NCBI GenBank assembly: GCA_902796825.1
Contig: CADBQQ010000024.1
Location: 1-34,273, forward strand
From: an uncultured bacterium
Lineage (GTDB): Bacteria; Cyanobacteriota; Vampirovibrionia; Gastranaerophilales; Gastranaerophilaceae
Reading direction: 5' to 3'
Length of the DNA: 34,273 bases
Made by a program: the position numbers and the translations under genes. Shown here one piece after another: positions 1,262 through 3,755 of the stretch. Below the pieces are notes generated by a model. It did not search any database and was not told where the DNA came from. It was given only the letters and a program-made list of their open reading frames with translations. Position 1 is the stretch's first letter. The number at the start of each line of letters is the position of its first letter.

Positions 1262-3138
1262 ACTCGGTGTTTGTCCAGAAGTACCATAAGTATGGAAATA
1301 TCTGCGGGCTTGATACCTCCTATGCGTGAAGCCTGAGCCAGTGTTTTAGGTTGAATTTTTGAAAGCTTGTCTTTTGTTTCGGATGAAATCTGATCGATTT
1401 TTGAATAATCAAGCCCGTCAGGAATTTTGAATTTTTCCAGCTTATCTGCCTGTAAAACCTGTTCTTCTTGACGTTTAATATATCCGTCATATTCGATTTT
1501 AACTTCAATTTGTTCGTAAACTTCGCGTGGCAAATCAAGATTTTTTGTAGTTTCATCAATTTCTTTAATTATTTTGTAATTAATATTCGGGCGTTTCAAA
1601 AGCTCTGAAGCACGCATTCCGCGATCTATATGTTCGTTATATTTTGCTAAAATTTCGTTAATTTCGTCAGATGCAGAGATCTTTAAAGCTTCAAGTCGTT
1701 TGGTTTCTTCTTTTATTAATCTTTGTTTTTCTTCAAAACGTGCAAATTGAACATCGTCAATAAGCCCTATTTTGTGCCCGATTGGGGTTAATCTTTCATC
1801 CGCGTTATCCTGACGAAGCAACAGGCGGTATTCGGAACGCGAAGTTAACATTCTATAAGGATCTTGTATATCTTTTGTTACAAGATCATCTATTAGGGTC
1901 CCTATATAGGAGGAACTCCTTGACAGTTCAAGCATTTCAGAAGCGTTAAGATAATTATATGCGTTTATTCCTGCGATTAAACCTTGTGCGGCAGCTTCTT
2001 CATAACCGCTTGTTCCGTTAATTTGTCCGCCAAAGAATAACCCGCGTATTTGTTTAGACATAAGAGAGTGGGTTGTTTGAATTGCGGGTACGTAATCATA
2101 TTCAACGGCATAAGCAGGTTTGATTATATGAGCATTTTCAAGTCCCGGCAAACTGCGTATCATTTTGACTTGAACATCAGCAGGTAAACTTGTTGAAAAT
2201 CCTTGAATGTATGTTTCGTATGTATTTAGGCCTTCAGGTTCAATAAAAATATGATGAGACGGATTGGAGGCAAATCTTACGATTTTATCCTCAATTGACG
2301 GGCAATAACGCGGACCTACACCTTGTATTAAACCTTGATACATTGGCGATTTATCGAGATTTTCTTTTATTATACGGTGGGTTTCTTCATTAGTTTTTGT
2401 CAGATAGCAAGGATAAGTTTTCCTTATCGGGCGGTTTGGCTTGAAAGAAAAGAAATTTAGTTCTTCATCTCCGGGCTGAATTATCATTTTTGAATAATCA
2501 ATCGTTCTTTTGTCAACGCGCGCAGGGGTTCCTGTTTTTAGTTTTTTGGTTTGTATACCTAGTTTATGCAGGCTATCTGATAATCCTATTGCGGCTTTTT
2601 CTCCAAGTCTCCCTGCGCTATATGAACGCAAACCTACAAAAATTCTACCCTCTAAAGACGTTCCTGTTGTCAAAATTACTGCGCGAGCATTGTATTCAAT
2701 ACCGAATTCGTCAACAGCTCCGATTATTTTGCCGTTTTCGACTTTTAATTCTGTTATACAGCATTGTTTTATGAAAATATTGTCGTTATTTTCTAATATG
2801 TTGCGCATATAGCGGGTATATTCCGCTTTGTCGGATTGAGCTCTTAATGCCCTAACAGCAGGACCTTTTGAAGAATTTAATACTTTCATTTGCAAATACG
2901 TTGCATCCGCAACTTCTCCCATAACGCCGCCTAAAGCATCAATTTCACGTACCAGAGTAGATTTTGCAGGTCCGCCTATTGCAGGGTTACAGGGTTGAAG
3001 TGCAATATTATCTACGTTTAAAGTACATAATAAAACCTGAACTCCAAGTTTTGCACAGGCTAAAGCTGCTTCGCATCCGGCATGCCCTGCACCTACAACT
3101 ATTACATCAAATTTGTTGTTTAAATACCCGCTATTCAT
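1258..3138 (-). CDS. mnmG: tRNA uridine-5-carboxymethylaminomethyl modification enzyme MnmG (GidA)
   Basis: A 626-residue FAD protein of normal MnmG length. With MnmE it installs the carboxymethylaminomethyl group at U34 of tRNAs reading two-codon boxes. Signatures include the N-terminal Rossmann motif VVGAGHAGCEAA, NPAIGGPAKSTLVREIDALGG, the FGGQINGTSGYEEAAAQG segment, and a C-terminal MnmE/tRNA-binding helical domain ending near SRIGGIKPADISILMVLL. The frame stays open up to a TTG at 3156, and an ATG lies at 3144, but a TATAAT at 3150-3145 would sit inside those longer versions. ATG 3138, six bases after the hexamer, is the likeliest start, giving a leaderless mRNA. No partner mnmE is in the window. 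It converges on the formyltransferase gene with a 4-base stop overlap and no terminator between. Confidence 0.95.
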   Translation of the reverse strand: MNSGYLNNKFDVIVVGAGHAGCEAALACAKLGVQVLLCTLNVDNIALQPCNPAIGGPAKSTLVREIDALGGVMGEVADATYLQMKVLNSSKGPAVRALRAQSDKAEYTRYMRNILENNDNIFIKQCCITELKVENGKIIGAVDEFGIEYNARAVILTTGTSLEGRIFVGLRSYSAGRLGEKAAIGLSDSLHKLGIQTKKLKTGTPARVDKRTIDYSKMIIQPGDEELNFFSFKPNRPIRKTYPCYLTKTNEETHRIIKENLDKSPMYQGLIQGVGPRYCPSIEDKIVRFASNPSHHIFIEPEGLNTYETYIQGFSTSLPADVQVKMIRSLPGLENAHIIKPAYAVEYDYVPAIQTTHSLMSKQIRGLFFGGQINGTSGYEEAAAQGLIAGINAYNYLNASEMLELSRSSSYIGTLIDDLVTKDIQDPYRMLTSRSEYRLLLRQDNADERLTPIGHKIGLIDDVQFARFEEKQRLIKEETKRLEALKISASDEINEILAKYNEHIDRGMRASELLKRPNINYKIIKEIDETTKNLDLPREVYEQIEVKIEYDGYIKRQEEQVLQADKLEKFKIPDGLDYSKIDQISSETKDKLSKIQPKTLAQASRIGGIKPADISILMVLLDKHRV

Positions 3139-3144
3139 ACCCAT

Positions 3145-3150
3145 ATTATA
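3145..3150 (-). promoter_or_regulatory. -10 element of mnmG
   Basis: A perfect TATAAT on the minus strand (3150 to 3145) precedes ATG 3138 by six bases. The -35 region is poor (nearest match TTTAAT at 3172-3167, spacer 16). A perfect 7-bp inverted repeat, CGTTTAT/ATAAACG at 3177-3196, lies just upstream and could be an activator site; its role is unknown. Confidence 0.5.
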
Positions 3151-3263
3151 AGCCAAAAATAGCCAAATTAAACCGGCGTTTATCTGTAAATAAACGTAAC
3201 AATTACACTAAATCTCTCTCATAAAACCCTATTTGGCAGCTGTCGGGGATTTTACATTTACCC

Positions 3264-3356
3264 CTATCCTTCTGCGGTCAGTTCTTCCCAGATGCTTGGA
3301 ACTACTATCAATGCAGTGTATACGATAAAACCGAATAGGATTAAGTTAATAGCCAT
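3264..3356 (-). CDS. Small membrane protein, 30 residues
   Basis: ATG at 3356 to TAG at 3264 encodes 30 residues beginning MAINLILFGF and ending WEELTAEG. It is a single hydrophobic helix of about 20 residues followed by a short acidic tail, which predicts a single-pass membrane peptide with the acidic end outside the bilayer. Support for its being real: a perfect AGGAGGT site at 3367-3361 just before the ATG, its own promoter-like sequence (TTAATT-N18-TAATAT), and no competing gene on either strand. I do not recognise it. The size and layout resemble the tiny single-helix subunits of membrane complexes, but no specific match is claimed. A GGGG/CCCC hairpin follows the stop without a T-run, so termination is unclear. 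Confidence 0.65.
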   Translation of the reverse strand: MAINLILFGFIVYTALIVVPSIWEELTAEG

Positions 3357-3360
3357 GATG

Positions 3361-3393
3361 ACCTCCTTTGGGTTCTCTTGCTATTTACCCAAA
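3361..3393 (-). promoter_or_regulatory. Consensus ribosome-binding site preceded by an inverted repeat
   Basis: AGGAGGT at 3367-3361 is the strongest Shine-Dalgarno sequence in the window. A 7-bp inverted repeat, TTTGGGT (3393-3387) and ACCCAAA (3373-3367), ends against it, so the stem would touch the AAA of AAAGGAGG. If transcription starts near 3388, only part of this can fold in RNA, and the repeat would then be a DNA operator over the start site. Confidence 0.55.
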
Positions 3394-3394
3394 T

Positions 3395-3424
3395 ATATTA
3401 ATCCCGTTTTTTAAAGAAAATTAA
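3395..3424 (-). promoter_or_regulatory. Putative promoter of the 30-residue membrane protein
   Basis: On the minus strand TTAATT (3424-3419) and TAATAT (3400-3395) are 18 bases apart, placing the start near 3388 and giving a ~30-base leader with the strong ribosome-binding site. This is a partial consensus match in AT-rich DNA, hence modest confidence. Confidence 0.35.
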
Positions 3425-3443
3425 CGTGCTATAATTTAAATAG

Positions 3444-3471
3444 TTGATAATTTTACAAAAATTCATATAAA
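3444..3471 (+). promoter_or_regulatory. Promoter giving a leaderless or near-leaderless zinc-ribbon mRNA
   Basis: TTGATA (3444-3449) and TATAAA (3466-3471) are 16 bases apart. The ATG at 3480 is eight bases past the -10, and there is no Shine-Dalgarno sequence between them. Confidence 0.55.
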
Positions 3472-3479
3472 ATATTGAT

Positions 3480-3755
3480 ATGAAAGATATAGAAAAACTT
3501 TTTAAAAATCTTTGCTGTTCAAGATGTAAAAATGATTTTACGCAAGAATCTATAAAAATAATTGAAAAGAAAAATAATATTTTAATATGTAATTTATTCT
3601 GTCATAAATGTGGAAAAGATTTTGGCAATGTTATTTTAAATTATTCTGCAAACAAAAGAAATCATCCCCCTCTTGAAATTATAGACGGACCTCCTGCGAT
3701 TAATGCGGATGATGTTTTAGATGCACACAGATTTATAAAAAATAATTTAAAATAA
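3480..3755 (+). CDS. Hypothetical small zinc-ribbon protein
   Basis: A 91-residue protein with two Cys pairs, C13-x2-C16 and C41-x2-C44 (CHKCGKDF), spaced as in a zinc ribbon. They are followed by a conserved-looking tail with PPLEIIDGPPAINADDVLDAHRFIKN. The tail's Asp-Asp-Val-Leu-x-Ala-His block suggests a defined helix rather than disordered sequence. I do not know a function; binding of nucleic acid or protein through the ribbon is only an inference. It is a single-gene transcript: it has its own leaderless-type promoter just upstream, and a perfectly palindromic terminator starts at its stop codon and is shared with aspS arriving from the other side. Confidence 0.75.
   Translation: MKDIEKLFKNLCCSRCKNDFTQESIKIIEKKNNILICNLFCHKCGKDFGNVILNYSANKRNHPPLEIIDGPPAINADDVLDAHRFIKNNLK

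Follow-up and report, generated by a model that had tools for sequence, protein, structure and literature searches.

A predicted single-span membrane protein of 30 residues conserved in Gastranaerophilales, with a candidate alternative-sigma promoter

A short minus-strand gene beside a zinc-ribbon gene

The window analyzed here is a 34,273-nucleotide stretch of DNA from an uncultured bacterium of the Gastranaerophilaceae. Its minus strand carries a frame of 30 codons plus a stop at 3264..3356 (MAINLILFGFIVYTALIVVPSIWEELTAEG), predicted to encode a single-span membrane protein; re-reading of the minus strand returned the same coordinates, strand and sequence as the initial annotation. The frame had been placed in a 340-base gap between mnmG and a zinc-ribbon gene, and this size is right provided that mnmG starts at about 3138-3156 and the zinc-ribbon gene at 3480. 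The latter, the usual neighbor of the small gene, is divergent (3480..3755, plus strand) and encodes 91 amino acids with two CxxC motifs; a sigma-70-like promoter candidate, TTGATA-N18-TAAAAT, precedes it at 3444..3473 on the plus strand and is a consensus match only. An extended Shine-Dalgarno sequence, AAAGGAGGTCATC (3357..3369, minus strand), abuts the ATG of the small gene. Scored against the canonical 13-base anti-Shine-Dalgarno complement AAAGGAGGTGATC, it matches at 12 of 13 bases while every other site in the 34-kb window reaches at most 10, and its description as the strongest ribosome-binding site (RBS) of the window is correct. Most genomes of the genus carry the near-identical variant AAAGGAGGTNATC. 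Upstream on the same strand lie a J-box-like -10-like element, GGGATTAATA (3396..3405), and a -35-like GTTA (3422..3425) exactly 16 nt upstream of its GGG, which upstream alignment and pattern searches mark as a dedicated promoter. A terminator-like stem with a T-rich tail (3162..3177, minus strand) separates the small gene from mnmG in this window (one found versus 0.1 expected from shuffles). This stem suggests a monocistronic unit, which is how the locus is best read from the sequence.

A genus-level search covered the window's assembly and 59 relatives. Of the 37 genomes of the genus, 32 have a frame 93-100% identical to the small gene; matches elsewhere were all weak. Across 30 genomes, pS was 0.62 and pN 0.023 (pN/pS about 0.04), with dS about 1.3 and dN about 0.023, and synonymous change is thus near saturation. 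The few changes in the protein fall mainly in the C-terminal tail, with conservative swaps at positions 16, 17, 19 and 24. Mean identity is 84% over the coding stretch and 32-43% in the flanks, with the exception of the RBS. Frame conservation in relatives and a synonymous bias were the checks proposed for this frame, and both came out in its favor, bearing out the view that it is hard to explain by chance. With purifying selection at the amino-acid level, a conserved start and a conserved RBS, the frame at 3264-3356 is almost certainly a real, translated small membrane protein.

A family-profile search found the small gene in a single copy in 103 of the 107 sampled genomes of the family (order Gastranaerophilales), spread over 22 genera, and nowhere among the 137 genomes sampled from the rest of the phylum. 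Diverged members, read one by one, include genomes of a second Gastranaerophilales family (G042, G047 and G050). No credible relative was seen in other Vampirovibrionia or in photosynthetic cyanobacteria, the best outside match having an E value of 0.0023 (G363). The four family genomes lacking a match are nominally 98-99% complete; since about 4% missing equals the gap rate expected of assembly holes, gene loss is not claimed. For the same reason, we rejected the joint absence of the small and zinc-ribbon genes in some genomes as an informative signal. All 48 distinct proteins share Y-x6-P, most of them conform to L-x3-G-x3-Y-x2-L-x3-P-x3-E, and in some genera the protein carries a 20-residue C-terminal extension of the type EEF-x2-AYFSHLAS-x3-NSYGK. 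A 30-codon frame that standard gene finders overlook can thus be one of the best-conserved genes in a bacterial family.

Conservation along the predicted helix

AlphaFold2, run with the family alignment, predicts a single helix spanning residues 2-29 (mean pLDDT 93.9), and residues 3-22 form the single hydrophobic stretch. This prediction, together with the conservation and the synonymous bias, supports the description in the initial annotation of an unannotated single-helix membrane protein. Weighted column entropies of 48 distinct homologs gave a conservation moment with its maximum at 100 degrees per residue (p 0.0004). Y13 and P20 had served as anchors; the moment was retested without them (p 0.01), and without G9 as well (p 0.04). 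The strongest positions, L5, G9, Y13, L16 and P20, all fall within some 50 degrees of a common line and E24 extends the series, while the opposite face drifts among hydrophobic residues. The layout had been called amphipathic. For polarity this does not hold, since the helix is wholly hydrophobic and the tail acidic; the protein is one-sided in its conservation.

One fixed and one drifting face point to a helix that packs against protein, and we consider it fairly likely that the small protein exerts its function in this way, on a partner in the membrane. The earlier suggestion that it regulates a membrane complex or is a small subunit of one fits the clustering of conservation on a single helix face, a feature looked for in that class, although the role itself stays inferential. 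The N-terminal segments are neutral or acidic in 48 of 48 proteins and the C-terminal tails are basic in many genera, and acidic in the window's genus. Because the C-terminus in that genus has no K or R, the positive-inside argument depends on the other genera, and an N-out/C-in topology is weakly predicted.

A conserved promoter and its candidate sigma factor

Alignment of the upstream regions revealed a common element, GTTA-N16-GGG-N-(A/T)TAATA, whose exact spacing is held across genera. Of 96 distinct upstream regions, 55 have its strict form with a spacer of 16; no other spacer exceeds 3, and shuffled sequences yield 0.0. A looser pattern is found in 71 of the 96. Whole-genome pattern searches in nine genomes of two genera placed a perfect site at the small gene in eight of them, and in six of these it is the sole perfect site. 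One further perfect site each occurs in G036 and G060, and G069 has a near match only. In five genomes a repeat-like stretch separates the promoter from the RBS, and the element is kept 156-161 nt upstream with the same spacing. That it survives such a natural rearrangement is an argument for a functional element that does not depend on the RBS. The stretch itself is a REP-like repeat of about 100 bp (GATTCTTCGG...CAGAATGAC; loci L012, L018, L020, L024 and L038).

The J-box of Nostoc punctiforme SigJ, GGGaAtacT, also precedes pilB in many cyanobacteria (PMC6495340). The element at the small gene resembles these J-box promoters in its GGG-N-(A/T)TAAT core, an extended -10 of GGG followed by an AT-rich core as in SigJ/SigF-type promoters, and a SigB/F/G-type sigma factor is present in Gastranaerophilales genomes. 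It differs in that the -35 is weak in Nostoc, whereas GTTA at the fixed spacer of 16 is strongly conserved here, and in that Nostoc has about 100 such promoters versus about one perfect site per genome here. We conclude that the promoter probably belongs to an alternative sigma factor of the SigF/J type. As a well-defined candidate alternative-sigma promoter for Gastranaerophilales, it makes the targets of the SigF/J-like sigma factor directly testable.

A wider regulon drawn from one-mismatch matches was rejected because their counts approximately equal those of the reversed-pattern control. Despite this control, sites of this type in genus g18 recur in orthologous positions before two genes. 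One encodes 97-106 residues with an RWYD motif; tandem genes for proteins of about 100-120 residues that repeat the RWYD motif and belong to no Pfam family were seen at L166, L167, L152 and L135, and RWYD genes adjoin the small gene in L069. The other encodes 317-319 residues with CLCCG and C-x2-C motifs, is HNH-like in appearance (L169, L163 and L156), and is followed by a related frame. The small protein could conceivably be the principal and almost the only target of this promoter class, with a SigB/F/J-type sigma factor kept mostly for a 30-residue subunit and a few uncharacterized genes, but we regard this as unlikely. If true, it would amount to a lineage-specific membrane response of non-photosynthetic cyanobacteria.

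A SigB/F/G-like sigma gene directly adjoins the prepilin peptidase gene pilD in seven of seven genomes from several families of the order (L137-L143). Its product scores 143-193 bits to TIGR02980, below the cut-off of that model, and it was absent from the matches read in the window's own genome, which is about 91% complete. From family resemblance this sigma factor is a candidate only for recognition of the small-gene promoter.

The prepilin loci showed features of their own. Matches to the prepilin N-terminus FTLAEVLITLGIIGVVAA are extremely expanded, with 112, 52 and at least 150 in G023, G060 and G079, respectively, in genomes of about 2 Mb (L308-L337). Either at the prepilin start or immediately ahead of it, 11 of 30 loci have a tract of 10-11 G within a short leader frame (RBS-ATG-...-TCGGGGGGGGGGC; named loci: L308, L309, L311, L314, L317, L326, L331, L011, L162 and L165). 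The tract looks like those of slipped-strand phase variation in pilin genes.

Alternative readings and proposed role

In Synechocystis, SigF controls pilA1 (PMC2758279) and sigF mutations suppress the loss of PilD (PMC8546353). The sigma gene beside pilD made a pilus link attractive, as did the resemblance of the small-gene promoter to the J-box known before pilB, and the promoter was sought at pilus loci. The small protein would then be a membrane effector of type IV pili or type II secretion, co-regulated with prepilin genes by the pilD-adjacent SigF/SigJ-like sigma factor. The promoter was found at none of 30 prepilin loci and none of seven sigma loci, and one match among 30 PilB/PilT-family loci had no gene start behind it; that the pilD-linked sigma factor uses the small-gene promoter is, moreover, our own supposition. 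With no prepilin locus and no convincing PilB/PilT-family locus carrying the promoter, the pilus link is not supported and appears improbable. The genomic neighborhood raises another possible partner, since the small gene usually diverges from a zinc-ribbon gene of 91-113 residues, the second family of the order included; family f7 and most genera of family f1 have the two side by side in this orientation. The small protein might cooperate with this zinc-ribbon protein, perhaps anchoring it in the membrane. In genera g30 and g33, however, the small protein is present but no zinc-ribbon gene was found, and families f2, f3, f4 and f6 have the zinc ribbon with no recognizable adjoining small gene, so a working pair seems slightly less probable still than the pilus link. 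As the remaining neighbors also vary between genera, the neighborhood points to no partner. The zinc-ribbon family (CxxC...CxxCGK...DDVLDAHxF) itself falls in no curated family; its best weak similarity, from a relative, is to Trm112 (3e-05), below the cut-off.

Two further readings were considered. Thirty residues, a single hydrophobic helix and a standalone gene would be compatible with the hydrophobic toxin of a type I toxin-antitoxin pair. Such toxins are typically patchy in distribution, multicopy and translationally shielded, whereas the small gene is present once in 96% of the sampled family genomes, its residues are almost frozen with synonymous sites near saturation, and its near-perfect RBS is exposed. 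We rejected the toxin reading on these grounds as very unlikely. As a short frame that lies ahead of mnmG in the same orientation, it could instead be a leader peptide or RNA element controlling the downstream gene. The downstream gene differs between genomes, which already contradicts this reading, the terminator-like stem intervenes, conservation lies in the amino-acid sequence and not in codons, and a search of Rfam gave no family above threshold at the locus; a leader has almost no likelihood left.

We somewhat favor a reading in which the locus encodes a core small membrane protein, transcribed from an alternative-sigma promoter, that acts as a subunit or modulator packing on a larger membrane protein. 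The gene would be a monocistronic unit of one Gastranaerophilales family, transcribed from its own GTTA-N16-GGGATTAATA promoter of the SigJ/SigF J-box type and translated from the near-perfect RBS. The product is predicted to insert as one helix, probably with its short N-terminus outside and its C-terminus inside, and the face L5-G9-Y13-L16-P20-E24 would pack against the larger protein; the product would be an accessory subunit of that membrane complex or would modulate it. Near-unchanged sequence across the family, together with an unusual promoter of its own, suggests that the protein probably does a core job. Gastranaerophilales are a common and hardly studied gut lineage, and the signature L-x3-G-x3-Y-x2-L-x3-P-x3-E defines a family that can be searched for in gut metaproteomes.

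KdpF, CydX, AcrZ and MgrB are proteins of about 30-50 residues with one helix that are thought to pack on a larger membrane protein. The small protein is comparable in size and in its one predicted helix; it differs in showing no sequence similarity to them (Pfam, NCBIfam, PDB) and in lacking a constant adjoining transporter or oxidase operon. Single sequences and family profiles gave nothing above cut-off in Pfam, NCBIfam or PDB. A weak match to fungal ATP synthase subunit 8 (PF05933; E 0.098) covers the helix, but at 13.3 bits versus a cut-off of 26.1 it probably reflects hydrophobic composition. Judged against these databases, the protein is a new family among predicted small single-span membrane proteins. 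It resembles the uncharacterized small-protein families of microbiomes, for which the GMSC catalog cites 4,539 from the human microbiome (PMC11364881), in being conserved, short, predicted to be transmembrane and free of any Pfam domain.
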